A model generated the notes under the pieces. The model did no database searches. It worked only from the letters and a program-made list of their open reading frames with translations, and was not told the origin of the DNA. A stretch of DNA of 26,242 bases, from positions 1 to 26,242 of IMG/VR virus record IMGVR_UViG_3300043772_003284, one strand, 5' to 3'. Shown piece by piece: positions 8,392 to 24,750 of the stretch. This stretch comes from a virus. Made by a program: the position numbers and the translations under genes. The stretch's first letter is position 1. Every line of letters begins with the position of its first letter.

Positions 8392-8395
8392 AACC

Positions 8396-9455: not shown

Positions 9456-9467
9456 TACCCCACAACC

Positions 9468-10217: not shown

Positions 10218-11605
10218 TGCTTTTCGACTACCAGCACAAGGCGGTTAGCGACACCCGCGCCGCCTTTTTAAACCACCGACGCGTTATACTAACCATGCCA
10301 ACCGGAAGCGGCAAAACATACACCGCCGCCACAATGGTTAAGGCAGCAGCCGAAAAAGGTCGCGCCCTTATGTGGGTGGCACACCGGAACGAACTACTTG
10401 ACCAAGCGCGCGCCTCACTCGCAAACGTAGGCGCACCCCCCGAAATTTGCACAAGCATACAAAAGTGGAACAGATCCGGCGGACGCATCAAACGACCAGA
10501 CTTCATCGTTATAGACGAAGCGCACCTAAGCATAGCGGAAACCTACAAGAAGCTAATCGAAGCCTACCCAAAAGCCTATGTGCTGGGATTAACCGCCACG
10601 CCGTACCGCTTGGACGCGCAGGGCTTAGGCGAAATCTACGACACTATTGTTGAAGGGCCGGCAACCCAACACCTAATCGACATTGGTAGGCTATCACCGC
10701 CCATGTACCGCGTACCATCGCAACTAAACTTTACCGAACTAAAAAAATCTGGCCGCGATTTCGACCCGCGACAAATGGCCGCCATGTGGGATAAGGCAAA
10801 GGTATTTGCGGGAGTAGTGCGAAACTTCACGCAAATGTGTCCAGAGGCCAAAGCAATAGCGTTTTCGTCAAGCGTAGAGCAAAGCCAAAAGTTAGTAAAT
10901 GAATTTGCAGCTGCTGGCTACATCGCTGCGCACGTGGACGCGGAAACGCCGCCAAAGGAAAGGGCAAGGCTGTTAGATTTATTCCGCAAAAGCCAAATCC
11001 AAATCCTATGCAATGTGGCTTTATTTACCGAAGGGTACGACCTTCCCGATATTCAATGTGTCATACTTAACCGCGCTACTTTGTCAAGGGCCCTCTATAT
11101 GCAAATGGTGGGCAGGGGTGGCCGTTCCGCGCCAGGCAAAACAGGCTTTTGGGTTTTGGATTTTGGGGGAAACGTCCTGCGACATGGGCGTTGGGAATCC
11201 CCCGTAGAGTTTAACCTTGACGGCACGCCACCAAGTGTAAGCGAAGGCGTCGCACCCATGAAGGTTTGCAAATCCTGCTTTATTATCAACCCCATCCAAG
11301 CCAAAGTTTGCACCGCTTGCGGCTGGGTTTTTCCACGACATACAGGCAACGCAGAAGAAACTGAACTTGTTTCTTTAGACCACCGCCCAAGTGTATTAGA
11401 ATTTGTCGAAATTTGCAACTCCGCCACCGCCCAAATGCGACCCGAAGCAGCAGCCCACAGGCTTGCAGCAGTAGCGCAAAACCCCGCCGAATACCGCAAG
11501 GCTTTGCAGCAGTTGGCTACCATGCGCGGTTATTCCGCAGGTTGGGTATGGCGGACGCAGAAAAACATCCCTTGGAAGGGAAGTGCAAAGATTATTAATG
11601 ATTAA
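10217..11605 (+). CDS. SF2 DEAH-type helicase with C-terminal zinc ribbon
   Basis: A 462-residue ATP-dependent helicase. Motifs: Walker A PTGSGKT at 28-34, DEAH at 100-103, TATP at 126-129, and motif VI QMVGRGGR at 296-303, so both RecA-like domains are complete. After them come two CxxC pairs, C351-C354 and C365-C368, giving a zinc ribbon, then a helical C-terminus. Phage helicases of this kind act in recombination-dependent replication, branch migration or origin remodelling. It is joined to the nuclease gene by a one-base overlap, so nuclease and helicase are likely made together and may work together like AddAB or RecBCD parts. Confidence 0.9.
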   Translation: MLFDYQHKAVSDTRAAFLNHRRVILTMPTGSGKTYTAATMVKAAAEKGRALMWVAHRNELLDQARASLANVGAPPEICTSIQKWNRSGGRIKRPDFIVIDEAHLSIAETYKKLIEAYPKAYVLGLTATPYRLDAQGLGEIYDTIVEGPATQHLIDIGRLSPPMYRVPSQLNFTELKKSGRDFDPRQMAAMWDKAKVFAGVVRNFTQMCPEAKAIAFSSSVEQSQKLVNEFAAAGYIAAHVDAETPPKERARLLDLFRKSQIQILCNVALFTEGYDLPDIQCVILNRATLSRALYMQMVGRGGRSAPGKTGFWVLDFGGNVLRHGRWESPVEFNLDGTPPSVSEGVAPMKVCKSCFIINPIQAKVCTACGWVFPRHTGNAEETELVSLDHRPSVLEFVEICNSATAQMRPEAAAHRLAAVAQNPAEYRKALQQLATMRGYSAGWVWRTQKNIPWKGSAKIIND

Positions 11606-11623
11606 ACCAAAAACCGAAACACC

Positions 11624-12439
11624 ATGAAATCACAAATTTTTCGCGACCATTTTCAAAACTTTAAGGGCTATCAAATCCCTAAAGCCCAGCTAATTATTGC
11701 AGACATTCCTTACAACCTCGGAAATAATGCCTACGCATCAAATCCGGCATGGTATAAAGACGGGGACAATTCAAACGGCGAAAGCGAACTCGCAGGAACG
11801 TCTTTTTTTGACACCGATGAAAACTTTAGGCCAGCAGAATTCATGCACTTTTGCTCAACCATGCTGAAAAAAGAACCTAAAGAAAAAAGCAGCGCACCAT
11901 GTATGATTGTTTTTTGTGCGTTTGACCAGCAAATGTACCTCATAGAACTTGCCAAGCGTTACGGCCTAAACAACTACATCAACCTCGTTTTCCGAAAAAA
12001 CTTTTCGGCACAAGTTTTAAAGGCTAACATGAAGGTGGTAGGAAACTGCGAATATGGCTTAATACTTTACAGGGACAAATTGCCAAAGTTTAGAAATAAT
12101 GGCAAAATGATTTTTAACTGCATGGACTGGCCGCGCGATAACGAAAGCGAAAAACTACACCCAACCCAAAAGCCCGTTGAACTTTTGGAAAGGCTTATTG
12201 AAATTTTCACGGATGATGGAGACGTGGTTATTGACCCATGCGCAGGAAGCGGAAGCACATTAATTGCAGCGCAGCGAAAAAACCGAAAAGGATATGGTTT
12301 TGAAATCAAAAAAGAGTTTTTTGTAAAAGCCCAAAATTGGATTGAAACCGATTTTAATACCTTTGAGGAAATCAAAACGCTGGGGTATGCCAAAAGCAAA
12401 CTCGAAGCCGAAGCCCCTACCCTTTTCTCTACTCTTTAA
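11624..12439 (+). CDS. DNA adenine/cytosine amino-methyltransferase (beta group)
   Basis: A 271-residue SAM-dependent DNA methyltransferase modifying adenine N6 or cytosine N4. The catalytic motif DIPY at 27-30 replaces the usual DPPY, and the SAM site DPCAGSGST lies at 204-212, preceded by HPTQKP at 179-184. Catalytic motif first and SAM motif last defines the beta group. No restriction endonuclease is adjacent, so it looks like an orphan enzyme that protects phage DNA from host restriction or marks replication origins. It lies 19 bases after the helicase gene with a start in the ACACCATGAA context. Confidence 0.9.
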   Translation: MKSQIFRDHFQNFKGYQIPKAQLIIADIPYNLGNNAYASNPAWYKDGDNSNGESELAGTSFFDTDENFRPAEFMHFCSTMLKKEPKEKSSAPCMIVFCAFDQQMYLIELAKRYGLNNYINLVFRKNFSAQVLKANMKVVGNCEYGLILYRDKLPKFRNNGKMIFNCMDWPRDNESEKLHPTQKPVELLERLIEIFTDDGDVVIDPCAGSGSTLIAAQRKNRKGYGFEIKKEFFVKAQNWIETDFNTFEEIKTLGYAKSKLEAEAPTLFSTL

Positions 12440-12450
12440 GTCGCAAAACC

Positions 12451-14736
12451 ATGAACTTCAACCTATCTTTTTACCCAAACGTGCGCGCGCCGAAGCCATC
12501 GCACAACATGACATTCGAGGATTTTATCGACAATGTCCAAACTAACCCAGAATGGCAAGAGGCCGCAGAGCAAATCCAAGCCATAAACGATAAAGCCGAA
12601 CGCCGCGAAGCCAAAACCAAACTGCCCGGCGTACGCCTGTCCGGTACATTTTCCGGACAAAGCGACGATTCAATTATTACCAAGTCCGGTTTAATCGGCA
12701 TGGATATTGACGACTTTTCAGGCGATTTACAACTTCTCAAGGAGCAACTTTGCCATGACCAATTTGTGGCAGGAGCGTTTTTTAGCGTTTCAGGAAATGG
12801 CCTATGCGCGGTTTTTCGCATCACAACAGACGACTATGCCGAAGCGTACATACAAATTTCCGCTTACCTACGCAAAGAGTATAACATCACTTGTGACCCC
12901 GCGTGTAAAAATATTTCCCGCTTCCGGTTTATCACCCATGACGGCTTACCATACATCAACCTTAACGCTGTTGTTTTTGACATCAAGCCACCAAAGACGC
13001 AAAAGAAAGCGGACTTTGTACCCTACTCCAAAGACAGCGATGTAGAGTACATTATCGGCCAAATCCAAAACCTCGGCATAGACATCACCACCTCCTACGA
13101 AGATTGGCTAAAAGTTGGCTTCGCAATCGCCGACGAGTACGGCGAAAATGGTCGGAACTTTTACCACATCCTTTCCCAAAACCACCCGGAGTACAACGAA
13201 AACACAACCAACAAAAAGTACGACTCCCTCTTACGCGGTAGAAATTCCTCTAAACGCGTATCAATTCGCTCGCTTTTTTATATCGCAGCACAACACGGCA
13301 TTCGCACAGTATCACCGGAACGCGCCATGATTGACGCACAAGCGCAGCGCGTTTCCAAAACCACCAACACCACACAAGACCTCGTAGGCTCGCTCGCCGC
13401 CGTTGGGGTAAACATTTCAGAAGATAATGCCAAGATAGCACTCGAAGCGGCCAAGACTTCCAAGGTAAGCGGTAACGCTATGGACTTAATTGGCCAGTTT
13501 ATTATTTCCAACTTCGACCTCTACCGAAACGGCGTAACCCAACGCATCTACTGCAAGGCAGACCCCCTCCACCATAAGTTTATAGGTGAACAGGAAATCA
13601 ACTCTATGTTTGTGCGCCTCAAGCAAATCGAACCCAAGGTCAAAATCCAAGACATCAAGGCGTATATCAATTCCGAAAACACTCCAACCTTTCACCCATT
13701 CGCAGACTTTATCGCAGAAAAACAAGGCTACGAAGGACCAGACGTGGTGGCACAGCTTATTGATTGCATTAAAGTGGAAGAAGACAAGGCATACGGCCCA
13801 ACGTGCCAGCATGGCGTCTATAAGCAGGTGTTTATGCGTAAGTGGCTCTTGGGCGTGGTGGGCTCAATGCAGGGCCACCATAACGAACTTATGCCCATCC
13901 TTTGCGGGGCTGGGGGCATCGGTAAGACCGTATTTGTACGCGAACTTCTACCGAAGTCCATGCGCTATCTTTTTGGCTCGGGCATCATCGGCATGGGCAA
14001 AGACGACCAAATGAAAATGAACGAATTTCTTATCCTGTTGGATGACGAATTTTCCGGAAAAACCACGCGCGACTTTAAGACGCTCAAGCAGGTGCTTTCC
14101 TTGGATTATGTTACCATACGCCTACCATACGCAGCCACCACCGAGAAACTCCAACGCATCGCCTCTTGGATTGGCACGTCCAACGAAACCCAAATCATAG
14201 ACGACCCCACCGGCAACCGCCGTTTTGTACCCATGACCATTACCGAAATTGACCAAAAAGGAATGGAGAAAATTGACCGCGAAGCCCTTTGGTCGCAGCT
14301 TGTTACCGAATACACCAAAGCCGATACCGAGGAGCTACGCAAACCCCACCACCTTACGCGCGAAGAAATGAAGTTTTTAAACATGGTTTCCGCCGCATAC
14401 GCGGTTACATCCGCTGCGCAAGACCTTGTGTCTTTAATTGTAGACCTCCCTCAAATCGGGCAAAAAGTGGAGTATTTATCTTCATCGGAAATCCTTGCAC
14501 TTATGAAAATGAAGTACCGAGTTGACCAAGTAAACCCACAGCAAATTGGGCGCGTGCTTACCTCTTTGGGCTTTGAGCAATCACTAAAGCGCACCGGAAC
14601 AATGGTGAAGCGTATGTGGAAGGTATCATTAGTAAACTCCGCCGACCTTGGACTAATTGGCCGCGAAGTAACATTGCCGGGTTTAACACCTTATAACACT
14701 TTAACAAACGAAGATTTTTTAACTTTACCGAATTAA
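12451..14736 (+). CDS. VirE-type primase-helicase (BT4734-like N-terminus)
   Basis: A 761-residue replication protein in three parts. Residues of about 1-175 form the BT4734-like primase-type domain, with GLIGMDIDDF and GLCAVFRI strands. Residues of about 190-285 are a primase C-terminal helical domain (EDWLKVGFAIADEYGENGR). Residues of about 440-640 are a virulence-associated E ATPase, with Walker A GAGGIGKT at 486-493 and Walker B LLDDEF near 529-534; GTSNE and a D-x-TGNRRFVPM stretch follow, as in SF3 helicases. It would unwind and prime DNA at the phage origin. It lies upstream of the sliding clamp gene and 2.5 kb from the iteron-like array. Confidence 0.88.
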   Translation: MNFNLSFYPNVRAPKPSHNMTFEDFIDNVQTNPEWQEAAEQIQAINDKAERREAKTKLPGVRLSGTFSGQSDDSIITKSGLIGMDIDDFSGDLQLLKEQLCHDQFVAGAFFSVSGNGLCAVFRITTDDYAEAYIQISAYLRKEYNITCDPACKNISRFRFITHDGLPYINLNAVVFDIKPPKTQKKADFVPYSKDSDVEYIIGQIQNLGIDITTSYEDWLKVGFAIADEYGENGRNFYHILSQNHPEYNENTTNKKYDSLLRGRNSSKRVSIRSLFYIAAQHGIRTVSPERAMIDAQAQRVSKTTNTTQDLVGSLAAVGVNISEDNAKIALEAAKTSKVSGNAMDLIGQFIISNFDLYRNGVTQRIYCKADPLHHKFIGEQEINSMFVRLKQIEPKVKIQDIKAYINSENTPTFHPFADFIAEKQGYEGPDVVAQLIDCIKVEEDKAYGPTCQHGVYKQVFMRKWLLGVVGSMQGHHNELMPILCGAGGIGKTVFVRELLPKSMRYLFGSGIIGMGKDDQMKMNEFLILLDDEFSGKTTRDFKTLKQVLSLDYVTIRLPYAATTEKLQRIASWIGTSNETQIIDDPTGNRRFVPMTITEIDQKGMEKIDREALWSQLVTEYTKADTEELRKPHHLTREEMKFLNMVSAAYAVTSAAQDLVSLIVDLPQIGQKVEYLSSSEILALMKMKYRVDQVNPQQIGRVLTSLGFEQSLKRTGTMVKRMWKVSLVNSADLGLIGREVTLPGLTPYNTLTNEDFLTLPN

Positions 14737-14749
14737 ACGCCACTACACC

Positions 14750-15748
14750 ATGAACACCACAAACGACATTACCAGCCTACTATCAAACGTAGCAAAGGCC
14801 ACCAGCCCAACAACAATCCCTGCAACGCAAAACCTTTGCTTCCGTAATAACCAAGTCGAGGCAACAGATTTACAAACGCACATTGTCGCGCCGCTACCCA
14901 GCGAGCTCAACTGCCAAGTAAACGCATCCGCGCTAATCGCAGCTTTAAAACAAATCGAAAACCCAACCATCACCCAGCATGAAGGGTACATCCTGCTAAA
15001 AACCGGCAAAGGCAAATACAAAATGCCTTGCTATCCTGCAGACGAATTTCCGGCTGCACCTTCCATTTCCGGCACACCTATGCAGGTTTCCTCGGATGTT
15101 TTCGCATCGGCCAAGCAATACTGCTCAAACATGGTGGGTAAAGACGACCTACGCCCTGTCATGTCCGGGATATACTTCGGCGAAAACGAAATCGCAGCCA
15201 CAGACGCCACCCGCCTCGCCAAAATTAGCCAAGACCACCCCTTGTCAGGCATCATTATACCCGTTAAGCCCATTCGCTTAACCCAAGACTTTATCCGGTC
15301 AAACTTTGCCGTTACCCAAGCAGACAACCACATCAAAATAGAAGCATTTAACGCTACTATTTACGCGCGGTTGATTTCCGGTAACTACCCGAAATACCAA
15401 GCCGTTTTCCCTTCCCACCATGCCGAGTTCCAAGCGGACGCCGCCGAACTTTCGACTGCTATTCGCAGGCTACTGCCATACGCCAACAACGCTACCAACC
15501 TCATTATTTTTGACTTCGAGAAACAATGCCTAACCGCGTTTGACATAGACTTAAACAAAGAGGCAAGCGAGGGCTTTACCCTACCTTCCGGACCAAAACA
15601 AATCGGCGTGAATGGCCGCTTTTTGGCCGACATCCTGCGCACCATCGAAACCCCAAGCATAACCATAGCCCACGGCGAACCAAACCGCCCGCTTATTATC
15701 AAATCCAAAAACGCAGAGTTTTTATTAATGCCTATAATTTTAGCATGA
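14750..15748 (+). CDS. DNA polymerase sliding clamp, DnaN (beta) type
   Basis: A 332-residue protein resembling the beta clamp, which encircles DNA and tethers polymerase. Clamp features appear in order: RPVMSGIYF at 135-143, ATDATRLA at 150-157, GNYPKYQAVFP at 211-221, and the C-terminal LLMPIILA that corresponds to the partner-binding pocket end of DnaN. It is shorter than cellular clamps (about 370 residues), chiefly at the N-terminus. Phage-borne DnaN homologues are uncommon. No DNA polymerase is encoded in this window, so it would either recruit the host replicase or act with a polymerase encoded elsewhere. Its stop overlaps the next ATG (ATGA at 15745-15748). Confidence 0.85.
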   Translation: MNTTNDITSLLSNVAKATSPTTIPATQNLCFRNNQVEATDLQTHIVAPLPSELNCQVNASALIAALKQIENPTITQHEGYILLKTGKGKYKMPCYPADEFPAAPSISGTPMQVSSDVFASAKQYCSNMVGKDDLRPVMSGIYFGENEIAATDATRLAKISQDHPLSGIIIPVKPIRLTQDFIRSNFAVTQADNHIKIEAFNATIYARLISGNYPKYQAVFPSHHAEFQADAAELSTAIRRLLPYANNATNLIIFDFEKQCLTAFDIDLNKEASEGFTLPSGPKQIGVNGRFLADILRTIETPSITIAHGEPNRPLIIKSKNAEFLLMPIILA

Positions 15749-16314
15749 CCACAACCATTATCGGGAAACACCCTTCCGCATACCAACACCTGCACCTTGT
15801 AGACGGCACTACAATCGGCCTAAACCAAGCTGCCCTCGCATTTCACACCGATTTCGCCATGTCGGGCCATGACGTAGTTATCGATATGTTCAAGCTGACC
15901 GGGTTTTTTCCCGAACGCACCATTGCCTGCTACCCTTCCTTCGAAGGAACAAACCACCGCACACCACATTGGATTAAAAATGGCCAATACCGCCAAACAA
16001 TAGAGCGCAAAGAAATGCCATTGGAGTGGATTGAAAACTTCGTTATTTCCGCTGTAAACCGCGACACCAAGGCACTATACCCGAACTTTTGGTCAATACT
16101 GCATTTAGCCATGTTCTACGCCGTTTCGCATGGGGCTACCAAGCTAATCCTTATCGGAGTGGACAACACTCCAAGCGGCTCTGAAATGTACCCAGACATG
16201 GTGAACCATGAGTACGTGCGAAAGCACACCGCCCTGTTGGTGGAACTTTTCCAAAAGCACGGGATAAACGTGCAATGGTTTAGGGACAACACCTCTACAC
16301 TTTGTAACCAATAA
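15745..16314 (+). CDS. DUF115/MptE-like or glycosyltransferase-like protein
   Basis: A 189-residue protein with a Rossmann-like outline: an N-terminal strand and loop (TIIGKHPSA), IGLNQAAL at 24-31, HDVVIDM at 42-48, and FWSILHLAMFYAVSHGATKL at 115-134 running into ILIGVD at 135-140. That last segment, a helix followed by G-A-x-x-L-x-L-I-G-V-D, is shared by DUF115 (MptE-like) proteins and some glycosyltransferases. No substrate can be named. It overlaps the clamp gene by four bases and is followed 10 bases later by a SAM methyltransferase, so the two may act in one modification step. Certainty is moderate for the fold, low for function. Confidence 0.55.
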   Translation: MTTTIIGKHPSAYQHLHLVDGTTIGLNQAALAFHTDFAMSGHDVVIDMFKLTGFFPERTIACYPSFEGTNHRTPHWIKNGQYRQTIERKEMPLEWIENFVISAVNRDTKALYPNFWSILHLAMFYAVSHGATKLILIGVDNTPSGSEMYPDMVNHEYVRKHTALLVELFQKHGINVQWFRDNTSTLCNQ

Positions 16315-16324
16315 TTCAAATATA

Positions 16325-16912
16325 ATGGCCAAGAAAAAACCAGCCATAGAACAAGACGCAGACATCGCAACGCGGGTTAAAATCGATCCAGCTGCGCCGC
16401 AAGGCTACCGCCCCGCAGACCCCGCCACCAACCGCCCTGCGATTTGGTCAAGCGAACCCGAAATAGCACAGCTTATCCTCGCTATCGCCGCCAACACCAA
16501 GGCCAAAACCATTATCGAAGTGGGATGTTTTCGGGGGGCTACAACCACTCAATTAGCTGCATCAGGCTTGGACATCCATGTCGTGGACATCGCTCCGGAA
16601 TTGCCACCAATGCCGCCCAATGTAACCGTGTACGTCGGCGATAGCATCGCACTCGCGCCAAAGCTACCCAAGGCAGATATTATCTTCTTTGACAGCGTCC
16701 ACGAGTTTAAGCGGCAGCGGGATGAGTTTCAACGCTACGAGCGCATCTGCGGAAACCCCAACACCACTTATATCTTCCATGACGCTATCCATATCGCAGA
16801 CGTAGCAGCGTTTTGCGCATGGCTTCGGGAGTGGTATGACGTGGTCATCATTAACACCACCGATAATCGCGGTTTAGCGATTGCCAAGTGGAAGGGAAGC
16901 CGTAAAAAGTAA
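16325..16912 (+). CDS. Class I SAM-dependent methyltransferase
   Basis: A 195-residue enzyme of the Rossmann type. Motif I EVGCFRGA lies at 65-72, the SAM-ribose acidic residue at D88 (HVVDIA), GDS at 105-107, FFDSVHE at 121-127 and FHDAIH at 151-156. The D-x-x-HE and HDA pattern resembles the methyltransferase family 24 and cephalosporin hydroxylase-like group, which often modify sugars or small molecules rather than DNA. The first 25 residues are basic and polar (MAKKKPAIEQDADIATR). It ends the replication-side block; a terminator follows 21 bases after its stop. Paired with the gene upstream it may modify a glycan or virion component. Confidence 0.75.
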   Translation: MAKKKPAIEQDADIATRVKIDPAAPQGYRPADPATNRPAIWSSEPEIAQLILAIAANTKAKTIIEVGCFRGATTTQLAASGLDIHVVDIAPELPPMPPNVTVYVGDSIALAPKLPKADIIFFDSVHEFKRQRDEFQRYERICGNPNTTYIFHDAIHIADVAAFCAWLREWYDVVIINTTDNRGLAIAKWKGSRKK

Positions 16913-16933: not shown

Positions 16934-16956
16934 AGCCCCTTCAATGGGGCTTTTTT
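16934..16956 (+). terminator. Terminator closing the early block
   Basis: AGCCCC (16934-16939), loop TTCAAT, GGGGCT (16946-16951), then a T run to 16956. Confidence 0.85.
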
Positions 16957-17743
16957 GTGGCCTATAATATAGTTTACCCTTTGGCACGCCTCGCCACATA
17001 TAAGTTTTATTTATCTTTTGCCAGCAACCCATAAACCCGGCTTATAATAGCCCTATTTTGCTTACTCGTTTTATGGGTAATGGTTACAACTTTTAGGGGG
17101 TGCATATCCAACCCCTGTATTTTCGGTGAAAGTTTCAAACGATTTTTGCACTTTTTTTCATTTTTTTTCAACAGCCTGTTTTTGTCAATTTTAAATTTAC
17201 ACACCACCGCGTTTTTTCCGATAAATTGCCAATCGCAAACCATTGCACCACAGCCTTTTACGCCCATTTTCCGCCATATTTTACCCCGCTTTTTTCCGAT
17301 AAAAGTTTGTAACAGTGTGTTTTTTTACTGTTACACTCCAAGCCCCGCAGCCTCAATGCGTTACAAGGGTTTTGTAACAGATATTTTTTCACTGTTACAC
17401 GCTACAGCCCTACTCCCACGGGCGTTTCCCGCGTTTCTGTAACAGATATCGACATTTCAAAAACTATATAAAAAATAGGGGTATTGAAAGTACCAAATTT
17501 TACCATTTATTATTAAAAGTCTATTAGAGTATATATCTTACAACATATAGTTGTAACCCTTTTCATATAACCTTTAATACTTTTTTCTGTTACCTGTTAC
17601 AGAGTATTATATTATATAGTAAAGACGGGGGTTGTAGGCTGTAACAGATTTTTTTTATCTGTTACAATCTGTTACAATTTGGTGGAATGGAAAAATTTGT
17701 TTTATTTGGTGGCCGAACAAAAACCGAAAATAACGCATAGTTT
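16957..17743. other. Long intergenic region, candidate origin or regulatory centre
   Basis: About 790 bases with no convincing gene in an otherwise packed genome. The left part (16957-17300) has T runs and no clear structure. The centre and right part hold the TGTAACAG array (17308-17676), an AT-rich stretch (about 17446-17600) that could melt easily, and the palindrome TTACAAC-ATATA-GTTGTAA (17538-17556). It lies between the clamp/primase block and the packaging block, a usual place for a phage origin. Two frames present here (17080-17442 on + and 17007-17267 on -) are dominated by Phe or Lys codons from T runs, and I do not accept them as genes. Confidence 0.6.
17308..17676. repeat. TGTAACAG/CTGTTACA iteron-like array
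   Basis: Exact copies of TGTAACAG on + at 17308, 17373, 17438 and 17640; exact copies of the complement CTGTTACA at 17328, 17392, 17594, 17659 and 17669; one near copy (CTGTTACC) at 17587. Six of the exact copies make three inverted pairs with T-rich spacers: 17308/17328 (12 bases), 17373/17392 (11) and 17640/17659 (11). The copies at 17659 and 17669 repeat in tandem at 10 bases, one helical turn. This fits a protein-binding array such as origin iterons or a multi-site operator. Confidence 0.85.
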
Positions 17744-18088
17744 ATGAAAAGGCAAGAAGACCACATCCAAGCGGAAATAGTCAAGTGGTGGCAGACTACC
17801 TACCCAGCGAGAGCAGCTGACCTCATCCACATCCCAAATGAGGGCAAAAGGAGCGCACAGGAGGCCGGAAGAATGGCGGCGTTAGGGTTGATGCCCGGCG
17901 CACCCGATTTAATCGTGCATATCGGCTTTAATTACTTTGTGCCGATTGAGGTGAAAGCACCCGGCGGGAGGCTATCCCAAAGTCAAAAAAACTTAAATCG
18001 CTTTTGGGGTGCGAGGGGAACTCAAATCCATGTCGTATATTCGTTAGAGGATTTTCAAAAAGTCATATCCCCATGGATGAAGAAATAA
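17744..18088 (+). CDS. VRR-NUC domain nuclease
   Basis: A 114-residue single-domain nuclease of the VRR-NUC branch of the PD-(D/E)XK fold. Motifs: HIPNEGKRS at 29-37, PGAPDLIV at 51-58 with D55, and PIEVKAPGG at 67-75 with E69 and K71 as the active site; SQSQ follows at 78-81. Phage VRR-NUC proteins are structure-specific nucleases (Holliday junction or flap type) that could clear branched DNA before packaging. It is the first gene after the iteron-like region and comes four genes upstream of the large terminase. The next gene starts inside its last 16 bases. Confidence 0.88.
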   Translation: MKRQEDHIQAEIVKWWQTTYPARAADLIHIPNEGKRSAQEAGRMAALGLMPGAPDLIVHIGFNYFVPIEVKAPGGRLSQSQKNLNRFWGARGTQIHVVYSLEDFQKVISPWMKK

Positions 18089-18294
18089 GCGTTGAAGCCT
18101 ACCAAAAGGGTTTAAGAAACATCGAGGCGATGGAGTTTGACCATTGGTACAAGGTAAGCAGCGAAGAGATAGACGCGGCCATGAGGCACGCGCAGGAAAC
18201 GGGGGTGCTGGCTCACGCTGGCTTCATGCTGGAATGGAATTTTAAAGAAACCTTGGTACGCAAAGTAAAAAACCTTAACTTTGTTTCCAACTAA
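18073..18294 (+). CDS. Hypothetical protein, 73 residues
   Basis: A small acidic to neutral protein starting MDEEISVEAYQKGLRNIEAM. The frame is open to an earlier TTG at 18004, but that lies deep inside the nuclease gene; ATG 18073 overlaps it by only 16 bases. It looks mostly helical (SSEEIDAAMRHAQETGVLAH), with aromatic residues in FDHWYKV and FMLEWNFKE. No family recognised. It sits between a nuclease and an SSB-like protein, so a role in DNA metabolism is possible, but that is only from position. Confidence 0.65.
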   Translation: MDEEISVEAYQKGLRNIEAMEFDHWYKVSSEEIDAAMRHAQETGVLAHAGFMLEWNFKETLVRKVKNLNFVSN

Positions 18295-18317
18295 TATAAA
18301 CCGAAACACACGAAATC

Positions 18318-18677
18318 ATGGCAAAAATGTACTGCGGGCAAGCCGCAATCAGACAAACGAAAATTGGTCAGGTGGTAAGCATTGAGCTTGACCTGACCGA
18401 TTTAAGGGCAATTTTGGGAGAGGCCGCACAAGGTCAAAGCGAAGCACAAATCCGCGAATGGACGGACAAGGCGGGTGTTACCCACAAAGTTTTAAAACTT
18501 GAAGCTATCCCCATGAAAGAGCCGGGCAAGTACAGCACTCACACATTGAAGCTAAATACTTACGTGAAGGATGCCGCCGCGCCTGCACAGGCACCCGTGG
18601 TGGACAAGCGTAACGAGTACATCCATGATGCGGTAGTAACCGCCCAAGTGGTGGATGACGGGGGATTACCATTTTAA
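18318..18677 (+). CDS. Small protein with SSB-like acidic C-terminal tip
   Basis: A 119-residue protein ending VVDDGGLPF. An acidic linker closing in a hydrophobic Pro-Phe tip is the hallmark of single-stranded DNA-binding proteins (for example DDDIPF in bacterial SSB), where the tip docks partner enzymes. The N-terminal 80 residues show alternating strands (GQVVSIELDLTDL, THKVLKLEAIPM, YSTHTLKLNTYV), compatible with an OB-type fold, followed by an Ala/Pro-rich linker (AAAPAQAPVVD). It would protect single strands and recruit phage or host enzymes. The tail is seen directly; the OB fold is inferred. It lies just before the terminase genes. Confidence 0.5.
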   Translation: MAKMYCGQAAIRQTKIGQVVSIELDLTDLRAILGEAAQGQSEAQIREWTDKAGVTHKVLKLEAIPMKEPGKYSTHTLKLNTYVKDAAAPAQAPVVDKRNEYIHDAVVTAQVVDDGGLPF

Positions 18678-18682
18678 AGAAT

Positions 18683-19033
18683 ATGACCGCGCGTGAGGCT
18701 TATGCCATAGTGTGGTCGGCAGTATGCAAGGGCGACCTGATTGCAGCCGCTGGGAGGACGGCAGCAAAGGGTGGCCCTTGTTCTATTTCTGAATTGGTTG
18801 CCTTATTGAAGTCCGAGCCGGGCGTATGGGAAGACCATTTACTAACCGACAGGGAACGCGCTAAGAACACATTGAGATTTGTAACCGAGCGCGGCCGTTC
18901 GGAATTGGCACGCGTAACCGCTGCAAGGACATTGGTAGATATGTTGGAGGTAGACGGGCTAAACCCCAACGCTGACCGAGCCAAGATGCCAAGCGAAATC
19001 ATTTTTAAAGTACACGCGCCGAATGCTGAATGA
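18683..19033 (+). CDS. Terminase small subunit (probable)
   Basis: A 116-residue, largely helical protein placed directly upstream of the large terminase and overlapping its start by 11 bases, the usual position of the DNA-recognition subunit. The middle part (ERAKNTLRFVTERGRSELAR followed by VTAARTLVDML) could be a helix-turn-helix plus oligomerisation helix. I do not see a family-specific motif, so the call rests on size and gene order. It starts at ATG 18683, five bases after the preceding stop. Confidence 0.55.
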   Translation: MTAREAYAIVWSAVCKGDLIAAAGRTAAKGGPCSISELVALLKSEPGVWEDHLLTDRERAKNTLRFVTERGRSELARVTAARTLVDMLEVDGLNPNADRAKMPSEIIFKVHAPNAE

Positions 19034-20339
19034 CCTTATACTAAACCTTAAGCAGAATGAAACCTTAACCGAAAGCCTAAAGTATAGGCTTTTTGCGTTT
19101 GTTGGGGGGATTAGGGGAGGTAAGACGATAACGGGCAGTCATTGGGCTTTGCGTAACATCCTGTCGCGCCCAAACGAAAAGGGCGGGATATTCTCGAATA
19201 CTAACAAGCAGTTGAACCAAGCAACCTTGTCGGAGTTCATAAAGGTGCTGGATTATTATGGCCTGCATAGAGGCGTGTATTACGTTACCGGAAAAGACCC
19301 CGAAAGGTTTTTCGGCTACAAGTCCAAGTTCGATAGGCACGACGGCGTTTGGTCGTTTGCCAATGGTGCGCAGGTCATTGTGTTTAGTATTGAAACAATG
19401 ATCCGCGGTATTGAGTTAGGCTGGTGCTGGGGGGATGAGGTACAGGACGCACCTGTTGAGAGCCTAAACGTGGTGCTTGGGCGTATGTCGGGCAGCGCGA
19501 CCCCAAACACGCTATGGACAATGACACCGCCTGCGAATAACCCCGGAATGGACAACCTTATTTATGGGGAAAACCCGATACCCCATGTGATAAGCACTAC
19601 CTACGACAATGCGGCGAACCTGCCTGAAGGTTACGTGGAGGGGCTAAGGGAGCGATATGATGACCTTTGGTTTGACAGGGAGGTATTGGCCAAGCGTGTA
19701 ACCATGTCGGGGCGAAATTGGCTTTATGCTTTTGACCGGACGCGGCACGTGGGTAAGGTTGAGTATGTGCCGGACCTACCCGTTTACGTGTCCATTGACT
19801 TCAACGTATCGCCATTTGTCGCGGTTTTAGCGCAGCGCGGCGGCGGTGGTAGACAGGCATGGGTGCATTATTTCGACGAGGTAGTGTTAAGGGACACAGA
19901 AGTTGGCAGCAGAACGTATATCCAAGCCTTATGCGAGGAAATCCGTAGGCGGACACCCCAAGCGGCGGAGCGGAATTTATACTATGTTACAGGCGATGCC
20001 AGCGGGCGGGCGCAGTCGGTGATAAGTCGGCCGGGCGTGAATTATTGGACTGAGGTAGCGCAGTACTTACGGGTGGGGTACAATAAAATGAACGTGCCGT
20101 CGTCAAATCCGCCATTGGTTGAAAGCAGGCGGTTGTGCAATGCGATATTTGCGAAGTTTCCGGATATTAAGATAAGCTCGAAGTGTGCCACGTTGATAAT
20201 GGATTGCGAGTTTGTGAAGGCGAAAAACGGGGCAGAGATAGACAAGAGCAGCCGGGCGAATGTGCATCAGCGCGCGGATGCGTTGGACGCGCTTAGGTAC
20301 GACTTGCAGGCCAACAATGCGGGGTGGGTTGAGCGGTGA
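19023..20339 (+). CDS. terL: Terminase large subunit
   Basis: A 438-residue packaging motor. The ATPase half has Walker A GGIRGGKT at 28-35 and a Walker B/catalytic stretch WCWGDEVQ at 134-141, with a coupling segment TMTPPANN at 167-173. The nuclease half has the RNase H-like acidic set: D259 in SIDFN, D325 in TGDASG, and the D419/D422 pair in RADALDALRY. It docks on the portal, pumps DNA into the prohead and cuts it. The nearest portal gene in this window is about 18 kb away in linear order, so packaging and head genes are not adjacent here. The start overlaps the small-subunit gene by 11 bases. Confidence 0.92.
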   Translation: MLNDLILNLKQNETLTESLKYRLFAFVGGIRGGKTITGSHWALRNILSRPNEKGGIFSNTNKQLNQATLSEFIKVLDYYGLHRGVYYVTGKDPERFFGYKSKFDRHDGVWSFANGAQVIVFSIETMIRGIELGWCWGDEVQDAPVESLNVVLGRMSGSATPNTLWTMTPPANNPGMDNLIYGENPIPHVISTTYDNAANLPEGYVEGLRERYDDLWFDREVLAKRVTMSGRNWLYAFDRTRHVGKVEYVPDLPVYVSIDFNVSPFVAVLAQRGGGGRQAWVHYFDEVVLRDTEVGSRTYIQALCEEIRRRTPQAAERNLYYVTGDASGRAQSVISRPGVNYWTEVAQYLRVGYNKMNVPSSNPPLVESRRLCNAIFAKFPDIKISSKCATLIMDCEFVKAKNGAEIDKSSRANVHQRADALDALRYDLQANNAGWVER

Positions 20340-20343
20340 GCGT

Positions 20344-20386
20344 GTTAAAAGGTGTTAACCATTTTGGTGATACCAACGAAATGGTT
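20344..20386. repeat. Reversed copy of the intergenic motif merged with a hairpin
   Basis: On the minus strand, 20344-20359 reads GTTAACACCTTTTAAC, a near copy of the motif at 4600 and 7994. Overlapping it is an inverted repeat AACCATTT (20357-20364) with AAATGGTT (20379-20386) and an inner TGGT/ACCA stem. There is no T run, so it is not a standard terminator for the terminase gene. Confidence 0.5.
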
Positions 20387-20457
20387 TAATTTCGCAGAGT
20401 ACCCCTCCAATGTTAGTACTGTTGGATTGACTTTGCCAGCAATGGTGGAGTTTACAT

Positions 20458-20549
20458 AGTCAGGTGGCGAAATTGGTAAACGCATGGTAGCAACGCCAGC
20501 CCATATAGGTGAGATGCCTTGTCTACAGGTTCGAGTCCTGTCCTGACTA
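20458..20549 (+). tRNA. Class II (Leu/Ser-type) tRNA-like gene with a non-standard anticodon arm
   Basis: The acceptor stem pairs perfectly (AGTCAGG at 20458-20464 with CCTGACT at 20542-20548, discriminator A). A D arm GCG-AAATTGGTAAA-CGC (20467-20483), T arm ACAGG-TTCGAGT-CCTGT (20525-20541) and a variable-arm stem AGGT/GCCT (20507-20519) are present. The D arm resembles tRNA-Leu. Between 20484 and 20506 I cannot form a 5-bp stem with a 7-base loop containing T33. The best option is ATGG(TA)GC pairing with GCCCAT, which has a two-base bulge. The anticodon is therefore unassigned. CCA is not encoded. The gene is either a decayed tRNA or an odd functional one. Confidence 0.65.
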
Positions 20550-20568
20550 CTTTTTAAAAACGCAAACC

Positions 20569-20875
20569 ATGAAATACACGCGATACACTGCACCTGCGCG
20601 ATACCTTGGTTTTTAAGGAACTTCGCGAGCGTTTTGTGGTAAAGCAGGACACCAGCGGAAGAGCGCAGCTAAAGTATTGGGTAGATGAATACGGGCGGTT
20701 GCAGATGCGCTGCACGGCTACGGATAATGTGGTTAGGTGGGTTGAGCAGCACAGCAACAAGGCCACGATAGAGCAGCGCACGGCGGTCTTAGGTTGGCAG
20801 GCGGTTGTGTTGGCTTTGTGTTGTTTAGTTGCAGGCGTGGTCGCAGGTATAATGTGGATGTGGAATCCGAAGTAA
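20569..20875 (+). CDS. Small membrane protein gene with a +1 frame change in a T run
   Basis: ATG 20569 (AAACCATGAA context) reads MKYTRYTAPARYLGF and then stops at TAA 20614. The +1 frame continues without an ATG as KELRERFVVKQDTSGRAQLK and ends GIMWMWNPK at 20875. The switch falls in five T (20610-20614). Removing one T joins both parts, and a Phe tRNA could also slip +1 on TTT-T. The joined protein is about 102 residues: a charged soluble part, then one C-terminal membrane segment (WQAVVLALCCLVAGVVAGIM). Without the shift, translation would have to start at TTG 20606. A disrupted gene, a base-count error or programmed shifting are all possible. No family recognised. Confidence 0.55.
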
Positions 20876-20906
20876 CGTGCCGCAGACACAAAAGTGACAC
20901 AAAATA

Positions 20907-20936
20907 TTGACAAATCGAGCGTATGTGCTGTTATAT
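20907..20936 (+). promoter_or_regulatory. Sigma-70-like promoter before the AT-rich HExxH gene (tentative)
   Basis: TTGACA (20907-20912) is followed after 18 bases by TTATAT (20931-20936). This resembles a general bacterial promoter, not the Bacteroidota TAnnTTTG type used elsewhere in the window. It would fit an imported gene that brought its own promoter. Confidence 0.3.
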
Positions 20937-20950
20937 CATGTTTTAATTAT

Positions 20951-21559
20951 ATGATAGAAATAAAAAGAGATACTTATACGCTTTTATTAGGTGAAAATCC
21001 TTGTGAAATCTTTGCACACTTTGGTGTTGAAGAAATGCATGGGTTGAAAAACAAAGACTGCATGATTTATCAAAATACTAAGGATGATGCCTACATTTGG
21101 GGATTGGCTAATTATGTACCTAAAGATGACAAAGACTACAAGTTTAGAGATGAAAGATTTGTATTTATTAATCTTCAAAGGTGTGCAGATAACTATGAAA
21201 CCTATGGAGGTGTATTTCACGAACTTATGCACCATTCATTAGAGAAGCACAATTACAACATGGACTTGGAAGAAGAAATAATTAGTTGGGCAGAAAATGA
21301 AAGCCATGAAGTGTTTGAATTGATTTTAAAAAATTTATCGCAACCCTCATACAAACCCAACACCAAAAACATGACACCGAAAGAAAAAGCAAAGCAATTA
21401 ATCACCAAGTTTTACACGCTAACCACCGACACCGATATTTCCATTGCTAAGTCTTGTGCAAGACAAGCGGCTAACGAAGTGCTGGAGGCATTAAACCCAA
21501 GCCAGTTGGAAGACATTTTTTATTGGAGCGAGGTTAAAACCGAAATCGAAAACCTTTAA
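20951..21559 (+). CDS. HExxH metalloprotease-like protein fused to a small phage protein
   Basis: The frame also opens at GTG 20894; I prefer ATG 20951 (MIEIKRDTYTLLLGENPCEI). Counting from it, HELMHH lies at 90-95 and EEEIISWAE starts near 108. This is a zinc-binding HExxH with a following Glu, as in ImmA/IrrE-like and related peptidases. The part encoded before 21371 is AT-rich. From ATG 21371 the same frame reads MTPKEKAKQLITKFYTLTTD and ends EVKTEIENL. That 62-residue segment looks like a free-standing small protein common in Bacteroidota phages, and its ATG is preceded by an A/C-rich leader like other starts here. The locus may be a gene fusion or two genes with an internal start. The substrate is unknown. 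Confidence 0.65.
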   Translation: MIEIKRDTYTLLLGENPCEIFAHFGVEEMHGLKNKDCMIYQNTKDDAYIWGLANYVPKDDKDYKFRDERFVFINLQRCADNYETYGGVFHELMHHSLEKHNYNMDLEEEIISWAENESHEVFELILKNLSQPSYKPNTKNMTPKEKAKQLITKFYTLTTDTDISIAKSCARQAANEVLEALNPSQLEDIFYWSEVKTEIENL

Positions 21560-21560
21560 C

Positions 21561-21770
21561 ATGGAACAAGTAAACCACCCTAACCACTACGGCGGCGGCG
21601 AAAACCCATACGAAGCGATTAAGGTTATCGAAGCATGGGATTTAGGCTTTAACCTTGGCAATGTGGTTAAGTACCTTTCCCGTGCCGGAAAAAAGGGCGA
21701 AACGCTGGAAGACCTACGCAAAGCTGCATGGTATTTAAATCGCGAAATTCAAAACCGCGAAAATGAATAG
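21561..21770 (+). CDS. DUF3310 family protein
   Basis: A 69-residue protein with the full DUF3310 signature: VNHPNHYGGG at 4-13, YEAIKVIEAW at 17-26, LGNVVKYLSRAGKK at 32-45 and LEDLRKAAWYL at 49-59. The family is widespread in phages, where it is often annotated as a nucleotide kinase-like protein, although its reaction is not settled. It begins one base after the stop of the fused gene upstream and overlaps the next gene by eight bases, so the three are likely on one message. Confidence 0.9.
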   Translation: MEQVNHPNHYGGGENPYEAIKVIEAWDLGFNLGNVVKYLSRAGKKGETLEDLRKAAWYLNREIQNRENE

Positions 21771-22047
21771 GTACACTTTGCTAAGCGAAAACTACGCCGA
21801 GCGTAAGAAGCTGCGGCAGGACTTCCATAAGGAAACGCGGATAGGTGCGCTGGACAAGCTGGTGGTGTATTGCGCATGGCTGGAACACAAAGCCACGACC
21901 GAAACCAAGATAAGCAACGCTCAAATTAGGCGGCTATTTTCAAGTATATCGCGGCTGGACATTCAGGACGACTTTTGTTTTATTGAGTACACCCTGTTCT
22001 TGGAAAACGAACTAATCATAAGTCGCAGGGCAGCATTAAAAAAATAG
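21763..22047 (+). CDS. Hypothetical protein, 94 residues
   Basis: Starts MNRYTLLSENYAERKKLRQD, with ATG 21763 inside the last eight bases of the DUF3310 gene (ATGAATAG). It is a charged, mostly helical soluble protein: a basic N-terminal helix, a helix around DKLVVYCAWLEHKATT, and a C-terminal helix IEYTLFLENELIISRRAALK. I recognise no family. It ends the run of small genes before the tail block; a promoter-like box overlaps the bases just after its stop. Confidence 0.7.
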   Translation: MNRYTLLSENYAERKKLRQDFHKETRIGALDKLVVYCAWLEHKATTETKISNAQIRRLFSSISRLDIQDDFCFIEYTLFLENELIISRRAALKK

Positions 22048-22048
22048 T

Positions 22049-22056
22049 TACCTTTG
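22049..22056 (+). promoter_or_regulatory. Promoter box upstream of a short terminated interval
   Basis: TACCTTTG is an exact match to the -7 consensus. Transcription would start near 22061 and meet the terminator at 22093-22119 after about 57 bases. A 25-codon hydrophobic frame (MVFVLFYAFWRGV...) begins at ATG 22064 and ends in an ATGA overlap with the ATG at 22138. I do not call it a gene because it runs through the terminator. Confidence 0.4.
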
Positions 22057-22092
22057 GGTGTTCATGGTTTTTGTTTTGTTTTATGCGTTTTG

Positions 22093-22119
22093 GCGGGGTG
22101 TAACAGCCCCGCTTTTTTT
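22093..22119 (+). terminator. Terminator before the tail block
   Basis: GCGGGG (22093-22098), loop TGTAACAG, CCCCGC (22107-22112), then seven T. The loop happens to equal the iteron word TGTAACAG. Confidence 0.8.
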
Positions 22120-22120
22120 G

Positions 22121-22128
22121 TACCTTTG
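22121..22128 (+). promoter_or_regulatory. Promoter box of the tail block
   Basis: TACCTTTG, an exact -7 match, starts one base after the terminator T run. The first ATG of the tail block is three bases downstream, so the transcript would be leaderless or nearly so. No TTG lies at the usual distance. Confidence 0.5.
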
Positions 22129-22131
22129 GGT

Positions 22132-22704
22132 ATGGCCATGACTATTCAGCAGTATATAAACAAACTAAAGAAGAACGCCGAAGACTTGCAGAATGGGCGT
22201 GCGTTTGTTAGTCAGGTGAGCCAAACCATAACCGAGCAGGCCGACCGGATATTTACGGATGGATTGGATGACCGAGGCCGACCCATTGGCAATTATAGCA
22301 CAAGGCCAACATATATAAACACCATGGAGGCATCACCAAAGAAGCTGCCAGCCATAGGAAAGACAGGCCAAAAGAAGTTTAAGAATGGCAAACCGCATAA
22401 GTCCACGTATTTTGCGGGGGGCTATCGGCAATTTAAGCAGCGTGCAGGGCGTGGGGGTAAATTTAACCTGTTCCTTTTTGGAAACTTTAACCGCGCGTTT
22501 TTGGCAGGTGCAGTTAGGCCAACATTATTGACCGAGCCGACGCGTATGGTAGCACTATTCGCAATTAAGGCAGGGGTGGACAATCCATCGGGGAAGGTGC
22601 AGGGATTATTGGAACGATACCCCAACGCGTTTAAGCTAAGCATCAACGAAAAGGTAAACCACCGCGATAGGATTTCGCGGCTATGGAACAACGCCTTTAA
22701 ATAA
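22132..22704 (+). CDS. Tail completion/virion morphogenesis-like protein (probable)
   Basis: A 190-residue basic protein. DRIFTDGLDDRGRPIGNYST at about 40-59 is the typical opening of phage virion morphogenesis (tail completion) proteins, which join tail and head or finish tail assembly. It is followed by a Lys/Gly-rich region and TYFAGGYRQFKQRAGRGGKF. The frame opens earlier at TTG 22054, but that stretch contains a terminator and promoter, so the start is ATG 22132 or ATG 22138 (MTIQQYINKL). It is the first gene of the tail block. The C-terminal half is basic and not diagnostic. Confidence 0.6.
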   Translation: MAMTIQQYINKLKKNAEDLQNGRAFVSQVSQTITEQADRIFTDGLDDRGRPIGNYSTRPTYINTMEASPKKLPAIGKTGQKKFKNGKPHKSTYFAGGYRQFKQRAGRGGKFNLFLFGNFNRAFLAGAVRPTLLTEPTRMVALFAIKAGVDNPSGKVQGLLERYPNAFKLSINEKVNHRDRISRLWNNAFK

Positions 22705-22708
22705 TTTG

Positions 22709-22716
22709 TACCTTTA
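22709..22716 (+). promoter_or_regulatory. Possible weak promoter box
   Basis: TACCTTTA is one base from TAnnTTTG and lies four bases before ATG 22721, the same geometry as the boxes at 1025, 8054 and 22121. Confidence 0.3.
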
Positions 22717-22720
22717 ACCC

Positions 22721-23386
22721 ATGATTGCAGAGGTCATTTCCGAATTATTGCCAAGCGTAGAGGCCACGGGGTTAATAAGCAACGCCTATGGCTTATGCGA
22801 ATTGGTGAACAAGGATGAGCGGGAGTTTCCGGTTTACTACATTGGCAGGGATAATGCCGTCAGCGTGAGCGAGCAAGACCCTAAAAACGGGGTGGCTTGG
22901 TTTATGCGTAACGGCGAAACCACCACGGAAGACCTTGAAAGCCCGCGCGAGAACGACCGCATCATCCGGCAAACTATACCCGTGCGCTTTTACGCGTGGA
23001 GTGGCCGAAAAGTCTACGATGATGACGCGCCGCAAAGCCCAGAGATATTAGCGCAAAATATGCGGGCTGCATTAGTACGGGCTACTATGCCACAGCTTCG
23101 GCAAGTGTTGGGGATTTCCCGAGCGTTTACCGAGGCCACCGCCGTGAACACTAACACGCGCGAAGTGTTGGAAATCTACGCAAACATCCCCGTGCAGCGG
23201 TTAGACCACGTGGCGGTTTACATAGACCTAAACGTGGTGTTGATTGGGCGCGAGGAATGTTTCGTTCAGTACGCGTGCAAGACGCGTAACCGCGTTATTT
23301 TGCCAGCAGGAATATTAACCACAAGCCCATTGGGTGAAGCATTAACAATTAGCCCAAGTGGCGATTACATACTACCTTCGATATGA
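22721..23386 (+). CDS. Hypothetical tail-block protein
   Basis: A 221-residue protein of unknown family starting MIAEVISELLPSVEATGLIS. Residues 30-95 alternate short strands and turns (REFPVYYIGRDNAVS, TIPVRFYAWSGRKVYDD), and a helix follows (PEILAQNMRAALVRAT). The C-terminal part has strands (HVAVYIDLNVVLIGREECF). Size and place between a tail completion-like gene and a fibre-like gene would suit a tail terminator or connector. This is position-based only. Its stop overlaps the next ATG (ATGA at 23383-23386). Confidence 0.7.
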   Translation: MIAEVISELLPSVEATGLISNAYGLCELVNKDEREFPVYYIGRDNAVSVSEQDPKNGVAWFMRNGETTTEDLESPRENDRIIRQTIPVRFYAWSGRKVYDDDAPQSPEILAQNMRAALVRATMPQLRQVLGISRAFTEATAVNTNTREVLEIYANIPVQRLDHVAVYIDLNVVLIGREECFVQYACKTRNRVILPAGILTTSPLGEALTISPSGDYILPSI

Positions 23387-24750
23387 GCCAAAAACGAATA
23401 AATCAACTGCCCGAAAACGTAAACGCGGCAAATAGTACGAATGACTACCTTGTTAGGCAAACGTGGGAGGGGCAGGGAAACCCAAACCTTCAAACCAACA
23501 CAGGGTGGAAAACTTATGTAAGCAACTTTGGCGATTTTTTCGCAGGGATACTAACCCCGCTTAACCAAGTTTTAAACTGGATTATTTCGCCGATTTCTAC
23601 GGACGCGCTGAACACGGCCACCCTTGGAAGCGATTTAAAAATATATGTACCGCCTGCGCCTGCGAACGCGGCATTTTATGCAACTACCGCGGCTTCGGAC
23701 GTGGTGGGCTATACCAAGCTGGTGATAAGCACGGTTGATCCTTCATACGATAACCCTGCGGTTGATGTAAGCACGGGTGCGATAACGGCTTTTGGCCAAG
23801 CGGCGGGCGCATTGGTCAGCGCGCCGGGCGTGTTTGTGGGAAATCCGGGTGTTGTAACAATAACGACTACGGGAGAAATACGCCGCGTAAGCGGAAGCGG
23901 AACGGCCGAGTTTTATTTTGAGGTTTACCACAGGAATGCGGGCGGAACGGAAACCTTGATAGGGACCTCCAATGTAACGCCGCCTATTTCCACAAGCGCA
24001 TACACGCAGTTTACGGCCAACTGCCTCGTAAACAACGGAGATTTTTTAGCGACGGATAGGCTGGTTATTAAATACTTCGCCAACCGCATCGCTGGCGGTT
24101 CAAACCCCGTGTATCAGTTTTTGTTTGGCGGTGCTAACCCTGTAACAACGCTGTTTCCTGTTCCCGCTGGCGTGATTGCTCCGCCTATTTCAAGCGACCC
24201 CGGCAACAATGCTACAATAGGTACAGATGGTAAGATATTTGTACCAACGCCCGTTATAGCACAAGATTTTGAAACCTTGGCCACCCAAGGAAGCCCTGTA
24301 ACGATTATCAATACAAGCGCGGAAACTATTTACCCCACCAACCTGCTGGTGCAGGGGGCAAAAAACTTGGTTGGCGCGATGTATGAATTGCACTTTAATT
24401 TAAGCAAGGGGGCTGCGGGGCATTCGTCTACAATCCGAATTTACATAAACACGGCCAACAACTTGACGGGAAGCCCGGTTAAGGTGCTGGAATATGGAAG
24501 TGGGTTTAACTCCAACACGTCCTTTCCTTTTATGTTTAGGTATTTCAGAAACAGCGTTGGTTTGGTTGTTCCGAGGGATGTAAATGCTGCGGGTGCTGTT
24601 TTAGGCAACCTTAACACCCAATCATTGGTTAGCACTACGCCTATAACCTTTAACCCTAACCTGACCTATTATTTCGTCATTACCACCCAGATGAACGTAA
24701 CAACGTCATCCGAAACCTTACAATTTGCCAAGCTATGCCTAAACAAATAA
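23383..24750 (+). CDS. Tail fibre-like or receptor-binding protein
   Basis: A 455-residue, beta-rich, low-Cys protein, strong in T, N, G and V as fibre proteins are. A linker-like unit appears twice: PISTDALNTATLGSDLKIYV at about 70-89 and PISSDPGNNATIGTDGKIFV at about 268-287. Each precedes a new beta domain (about 92-262 and 291-455). The N-terminus (MSQKRINQLPENVNAANSTN) resembles the attachment part of Bacteroidota phage tail proteins. The first domain has paired-strand features (GTAEFYFEVYHRNAGGTETL). Such proteins sit at the tail tip and bind the host surface. There are no enzyme motifs. It overlaps the preceding gene by four bases. Confidence 0.65.
   Translation: MSQKRINQLPENVNAANSTNDYLVRQTWEGQGNPNLQTNTGWKTYVSNFGDFFAGILTPLNQVLNWIISPISTDALNTATLGSDLKIYVPPAPANAAFYATTAASDVVGYTKLVISTVDPSYDNPAVDVSTGAITAFGQAAGALVSAPGVFVGNPGVVTITTTGEIRRVSGSGTAEFYFEVYHRNAGGTETLIGTSNVTPPISTSAYTQFTANCLVNNGDFLATDRLVIKYFANRIAGGSNPVYQFLFGGANPVTTLFPVPAGVIAPPISSDPGNNATIGTDGKIFVPTPVIAQDFETLATQGSPVTIINTSAETIYPTNLLVQGAKNLVGAMYELHFNLSKGAAGHSSTIRIYINTANNLTGSPVKVLEYGSGFNSNTSFPFMFRYFRNSVGLVVPRDVNAAGAVLGNLNTQSLVSTTPITFNPNLTYYFVITTQMNVTTSSETLQFAKLCLNK

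Follow-up and report, generated by a model that had tools for sequence, protein, structure and literature searches.

A conserved two-orientation octamer array is very probably a phage replication origin, with a VapE-type primase-helicase as its initiator

The octamer array and its neighbourhood

The stretch of DNA analysed here (the window) is an entire virus-collection record of 26,242 bases. Downstream of genes for a primase-helicase and a sliding clamp, and flanked by a gene at 16325-16912 and a VRR_NUC nuclease gene starting at 17744, one octamer recurs in both orientations around an AT-rich core. The features are as follows.

12451..14736, + strand: primase-helicase with BT4734-like N-terminal, PriCT_2, VapE-like and DUF5906 domains and a predicted C-terminal winged helix at about residues 674-725; proposed initiator
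14750..15748, + strand: sliding clamp, DNA polymerase III beta-like, between helicase and array
17308..17676, both orientations: iteron array of nine exact TGTAACAG octamers in the order >< >< > core < >< < (counts; six relatives)
17308..17335: outer left convergent pair, TGTAACAG-N12-CTGTTACA (pattern search)
17373..17399: inner left pair, convergent with an N11 spacer, mirrored by 17640-17666 on the 17519.5 dyad
17438..17445, + strand: left core-edge octamer, mirror partner of 17594-17601
17446..17593: AT-rich core, 77% A+T, holding the dyad centre 17519.5; proposed unwinding element
17587..17594, - strand: near copy CTGTTACC, overlapping the next octamer by one base
17594..17601, - strand: right core-edge octamer; cumulative GC-skew minimum at 17594
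17640..17676: right convergent pair (N11) followed, 10 bases on, by a third octamer in tandem (octamer and pattern counts)
17744..18088, + strand: VRR_NUC nuclease gene, directly 3' of the array

A preliminary description of this DNA had claimed nine exact copies of the octamer in 17308-17676. Our recount located all nine, with exact TGTAACAG/CTGTTACA starts at 17308, 17373, 17438 and 17640 on the + strand and at 17328, 17392, 17594, 17659 and 17669 on the - strand. A tenth copy, at 22099, is the only one in the other 25.9 kb, and the total of 10 compares with a mean of 0.70 in shuffled sequence, where none of 100 shuffles reached 10. The other elements of that description were also present: the near copy with its one mismatch, the 10-base tandem at 17659/17669, the AT-rich stretch between the groups (148 bases, against 52% A+T for the whole window), and the arrangement of six octamers as three convergent pairs, which a pattern search recovered with spacers of 12, 11 and 11 bases. 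The convergent-pair pattern matched three times per strand and a reversed control pattern not at all. With weaker copies included, the array stretch contains 12 GTAAC/GTTAC cores. The sole ORF of at least 50 aa touching it (17080-17442, +, 120 aa) was judged not convincing. An ARAGORN tRNA call further downstream (20458-20550) has an undefined anticodon and is doubtful.

The array also has a symmetry that the earlier description lacked. Its inner three octamer pairs (17438/17594, 17392/17640 and 17373/17659) mirror exactly about position 17519.5; when nine oriented octamers were placed at random, three pairs fell on one dyad in 22 of 20,000 trials.

Conservation in close relatives and the GC-skew switch

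Six close relatives were found through the adjacent VRR_NUC gene and the helicase, and all six keep the nine-copy array; each has ten TGTAACAG copies, nine of them inside it. Aligned DNA identity to the window is 83-96%, and 99% for G001. In an alignment of seven genomes (G000-G006), which comprise four distinct array sequences only, one of 72 octamer columns varies, compared with 26 of 149 other outer-array columns, 18 of 148 core columns and 43 of 192 flanking columns (Fisher 5e-4 for octamers against the other array columns, 44 of 297 variable; 5e-6 against the flanks). The one change is in G006, where the near copy becomes exact and its neighbour breaks, leaving the count at nine; the octamer is thereby shifted by 7 bases, and two of the three dyad pairs remain exact in this genome.

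In the relative G005 (40,724 bases) the two ends overlap by 687 bases at 93%, and G003 has its ends meeting elsewhere in G005; the genome therefore maps as a circle of about 38-40 kb. Just upstream of the array region, near window position 16946-16958, two relatives are longer by about 960 bases (G002 locus L068 10354-11312; G003 30457-31415, with an ORF of 296 aa in G003). The DNA methyltransferase gene (N6_N4_Mtase) at 11624-12439 has no counterpart there in G002, G003, G005 and G006, and in G005 a related gene of 205 aa sits between helicase and clamp; the N6_N4_Mtase gene is apparently mobile cargo.

The cumulative GC-skew minimum of the window falls within the array, at 17594. When the two near-complete relatives were closed into circles, the minimum again lay in the array, at 39750 in G005 (array 39464-39832) and at 32063 in G003 (array 31777-32145). 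Gene direction does not explain the switch, because 32 of the 33 non-overlapping window ORFs of at least 90 aa run on the + strand. At third codon positions the skew changes from -0.33 over the 11 genes of 8182-16912 to +0.08 over the 11 genes of 17744-25607 (p 0.001), a test that left out the genes at 29-7983, a segment with near-zero or weakly positive skew. There is no sharp skew maximum, and the strong skew fades to a broad plateau away from the array. An apparent maximum opposite the array was dropped as an effect of the circle cut point (detrended maxima at 26101 in G005 and 18695 in G003). The switch falls where the replication genes give way to the terminase genes, and module history may contribute to it. 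Among 26 unrelated records with arrays, the minimum lies within 100 bases of the array only in G015 and G028; in G014 it falls inside coding repeats, and most of the 26 show one-way drift throughout or are fragments.

Scarcity of the word elsewhere, conservation and the position of the skew minimum together support the original proposal of an initiator-binding array and candidate phage origin.

The primase-helicase as candidate initiator

The preliminary description considered the initiator not obvious and saw no RepA/DnaA-like protein in the window. A DnaA/RepA iteron origin is indeed not supported, as none of the 19 Pfam-scanned window proteins matches a RepA or DnaA family and the window contains neither of the DnaA boxes TTATCCACA and TTATNCACA (0 copies each; one loose match at 2883). 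The initiator is not absent, however: the VapE-type primase-helicase is the best candidate. This VirE/VapE protein was one of two named at the outset, and the studied relatives of its group, SaPI Rep, SCCmec Cch2 and P4 alpha, recognise iterons by their C-terminal domains (PMC7581432, PMC4234260). The HTH protein encoded at 8641 has no Pfam or PHROGs match at E 0.001 and appears in none of the listed ORF clusters that span four or more array records.

The helicase matches PF05272 (E 1.2e-30), PF08707 and PF08800, and it reaches 27.8 bits against PF19263, for which the cut-off is 27.6 (32.2 bits in a second scan). A structural model of its last 128 residues predicts, with modest confidence, a helix-helix-beta hairpin in winged-helix order (pLDDT 65-80 there, mean 60.8). 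PDB structures listed as matches to this model are winged helices of many kinds, Cdt1 and MCM4 included, with a best Z of 8.8; the P4 origin-binding structure is not among the 50 matches listed, an absence that carries no weight. The sole solved sequence relative that we found for the helicase is 7pds, 'Similar to D. nodosus vapE'.

Known systems of this type differ in where the array lies. With SaPI Rep and SCCmec Cch2, the iterons directly follow the gene of the initiator helicase that recognises them (PMC7581432). This is the usual place, seen in Sfi21 as well, although it is not strictly defining, since P4 ori is away from alpha. The window array is displaced: it begins 2,572 bases past the helicase stop, and the clamp gene and two others lie in between. 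Phage phiFL4A has the order VirE helicase, gap, VRR_NUC gene, and comparison with the array-VRR_NUC order of the window hints at a separation of helicase and origin by the clamp and two genes in the window lineage.

A close parallel in layout is the annotated replication origin of Streptococcus thermophilus phage Sfi21, a 302-bp non-coding element (NC_000872 34487-34784) in which GTAAC/GTTAC words in both orientations surround an AT-rich tract, as in the window. It adjoins a DUF5906/Pox_D5 primase gene and is described as acting as an origin (PMC6356513). The Sfi21 words have flanks different from those of TGTAACAG, mostly AGTAAC followed by T or C, and the Sfi21 element lies directly behind its primase gene, unlike the displaced array of the window, whose helicase belongs to the VapE type and has a BT4734-like N-terminus. 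Satellite phage P4 likewise has annotated 8-base type 1 repeats in both orientations, with tandem copies 9-11 bases apart; its alpha protein binds the origin repeats through a winged helix (PMC4234260). The P4 octamer is TGTTCACC and variants, and P4 has two regions, crr beside the alpha primase gene and ori away from it, compared with the single array of the window.

Octamer arrays in other viral contigs

Viral scans and a search for a tight three-octamer pattern indicate that TGTAACAG arrays are widespread. At least 39 loci (from L073 up, counting window relatives and re-fetched pieces) reach or exceed five copies per 500 bases, on contigs with GC of 0.28-0.65, and the three-octamer pattern occurs in 28 stretches of viral contigs and 6 of genome contigs. 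Two of these six are 13-copy arrays about 10 bases behind a helicase gene, on contigs of an Alistipes MAG (L493, which likewise has an exact three-pair dyad) and a Clostridia MAG (L492). At the C-terminus their helicases are closely related, so one of the bins may be wrong. The other four stretches have fewer than four clustered copies and no helicase within the fetched locus.

The spacing of the octamers follows a common pattern in 29 two-orientation arrays, taken from a hand-made list of 36 loci that was not dereplicated. Same-direction neighbours are 9 or 10 bases apart in 55 of 92 steps, convergent neighbours are 18-23 apart in 30 of 63 steps or else far apart across the core, and divergent neighbours are 44-46 apart in 15 of 48 steps and never closer than 35.

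The arrays co-occur with the helicase. PF19263 (DUF5906) is found in 21 of 35 array records, 18 of them above cut-off, and in 17 of 30 once the window and the four of its relatives among the 35 are left out. The 35 include two records with 78-base coding repeats (G014, G017) and four with octamers in one orientation only (G027, G029, G031, G040), which we judged not to be origins. Among controls (50 of 60 sampled from 182) the match occurs in 4, one of which, G087, was mis-sorted, having two arrays beyond the piece first seen. Several of the 14 array records without a DUF5906 match are short or have coding repeats; PF05272 alone is found in 12 of 35. A local helicase profile matched 10 of 33 array loci (three of the 10 being window relatives) versus 1 of 182 controls; it was built from loci fetched with an 11-row alignment, six rows of which are helicases of array records, and is thus not fully independent of the arrays, and the count set aside 16 loci with exactly four copies, of which one (L239) has the helicase.

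Adjacency is frequent as well. Among records with the two less than 500 bases apart, the array follows the helicase gene on its 3' side, at up to about 170 bases, in G018, G019, G020, G034, G035, G041, L492, L493 and L498, in which G018/G019 and L492/L493 are pairs of close kin. It is 5' of the helicase in G016, G026 and its kin G032, within the helicase ORF in G024, and 1-7 kb or more away in G007, G036, G038 and others; in G022 it lies behind a DUF3987 helicase instead. The C-terminal winged-helix end looks alike by eye in several TGTAACAG users, which we regard as a lead.

The converse search started from helicases (41 clusters, 77 loci, from the best 80 of 539 matches). Among 60 permuted words, GTAAC was the top clustered word in 5 of the 41 clusters versus 0.7 expected, and in these five the cluster starts -46 to +281 from the helicase stop. 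AGATC was top in 6 of 41, at scattered positions and mostly on GC-rich contigs. Many other clusters have different repeated words behind the helicase (GTAAAC, TGGACA, GTCAAC, GTAGC, GGGACA), and several have none. This survey indicates that the place is common while the word drifts, with GTAAC as one recurring form.

The full octamer cluster was absent from 18 named phages (17 from 40 of the 273 records listed, plus Sfi21). By rank among 60 permuted words, its GTAAC core came first in snusmum, Javan608 and Sfi21 and second in APSE-3 and Javan179; in the other 13 phages it ranked between 11th and 54th. The scan covered W06, W14, W16, W17 and W18 in part. GTAAC clusters lie at the 3' end of the helicase gene in Flavobacterium snusmum, APSE-3, Streptococcus Javan179 and Sfi21; the Javan608 cluster is weaker, upstream and looked coding, and was not counted. 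Other words occupy this place in phiFL4A (GGATAC, 13) and pippi8-1 (GGAACA, 12), and no clear iterons were seen behind the helicase in phi46:1, Persinger, FoX1, CKB-S1, LNTR2 and BF503P2. Among the matches listed, array DNA matched named phages at chance level only (E 6).

Who reads the octamers is the point on which the main alternative turns. The array could be an origin whose octamers are bound by a factor of the host or by a small DNA-binding protein of the phage, for example the 8641 product, with the helicase only being loaded there. We consider this unlikely. Binding of the octamers by the helicase is itself inferred, and G007 and G021 have the same octamer with D5-type helicases only remotely like that of the window (blastp E 2.7 for G007). 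However, the primase-helicase is the most widespread ORF cluster of 29 array records, present in 16 (three from the window group), the 8641 product is without a family match, the wide GC range of the array contigs is hard to explain by one host factor, and studied relatives of the helicase bind iterons themselves (PMC7581432, PMC4234260).

Four prophage-like records have two TGTAACAG arrays 20-24 kb apart, reminiscent of P4 ori and crr:

G007: 23922-24281 and 44274-44577
G015: 1706-2088 and 26138-26542
G021: 17235-17639 and 41439-41823
G087: 1787-2169 and 24841-25245

By eye, one G007 array is near HNH/terminase-looking genes and the other is beside a recombinase-like gene at the record end. 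Boxes like the DnaA box TTATCCACA adjoin both (L198 4281-4400, L199 4240-4275), perhaps a host-assisted variant. G015 keeps both arrays, although its primase-helicase is broken into two neighbouring ORFs of 343 and 289 aa (17060-18964). Some loci of VRR_NUC relatives have other dense octamers (L056 666-891, L058 8966-9191, L064 1683-2277, L065 3375-3969), namely ACTTACAA in 11 copies and GTGTCATA in 9, which are possibly origins with another code.

Two further functions seem much less probable for the window array. A packaging (pac) or late-promoter control site would suit its place a few genes upstream of the large terminase gene (19023-20339), as well as the G007 array near terminase-looking genes; we judge it very unlikely, as several unrelated records have the array directly behind the helicase gene instead, the skew minimum, AT core and dyad fit an origin, and the Sfi21 equivalent is annotated and described as one (PMC6356513). 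The least probable role of all is partition or copy control (incompatibility) in a phage-plasmid. Regularly spaced iterons serve such roles too, and four records have two arrays, but there is no ParA/ParB-like match among the 19 Pfam-scanned window proteins, and partition would not need an AT core with a skew switch.

We conclude that the array is very probably the phage origin and the VapE-type primase-helicase its initiator. With high confidence, we favour a model in which the phage's own helicase would bind the TGTAACAG octamers through its predicted C-terminal winged helix. Assemblies would form on the two mirrored half-arrays and melt the AT-rich core between them, and two of them would load on the separated strands. 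Replication forks would then set out in both directions and recruit the phage clamp. The array would be a new self-recognised origin of an SF3/VapE helicase, a kind already known from Sfi21, P4 and SaPIs.

Less expected is that one octamer and one spacing grammar (tandem 9-10, convergent 18-23, divergent 44-46, core about 128-156 bases) are common to unrelated phages. One reading is that unrelated phages of several bacterial groups share a portable origin code, TGTAACAG with its core GTAAC plus this grammar, read by the SF3/VapE winged helix and either ancient or swapped as an origin-plus-binding-domain module. We hold this tentatively, at slightly less than even weight: for the exact octamer, the reach across phyla depends on bin titles and unnamed records, which lowered our estimate from an even call to just under it; for the GTAAC core it depends on named phages. 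The literature matches listed on SaPI, Sfi21, P4, self-loading helicases and VirE/iterons contain no report of a shared TGTAACAG code, those listed for the octamer itself are unrelated, and those for GTAAC with phage iterons describe no such origins in their titles and the opening lines of their abstracts.

If the shared code is real, origins, and prophages with two of them, could be read directly from sequence. To our knowledge, most phage origins are unmapped; if octamer and spacing mark origins in many phages, the origin, its initiator and the direction of replication would become predictable from sequence, and mini-replicons could be built for hosts without vectors. The iteron-reading winged helix would also be open to study through natural pairs within the same helicase family that use GTAGC, GTAAAC or TGGACA. 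Extra copies of the Sfi21 element are reported to block incoming phages (PMC6356513), so such arrays may serve as phage-resistance elements for starter cultures.
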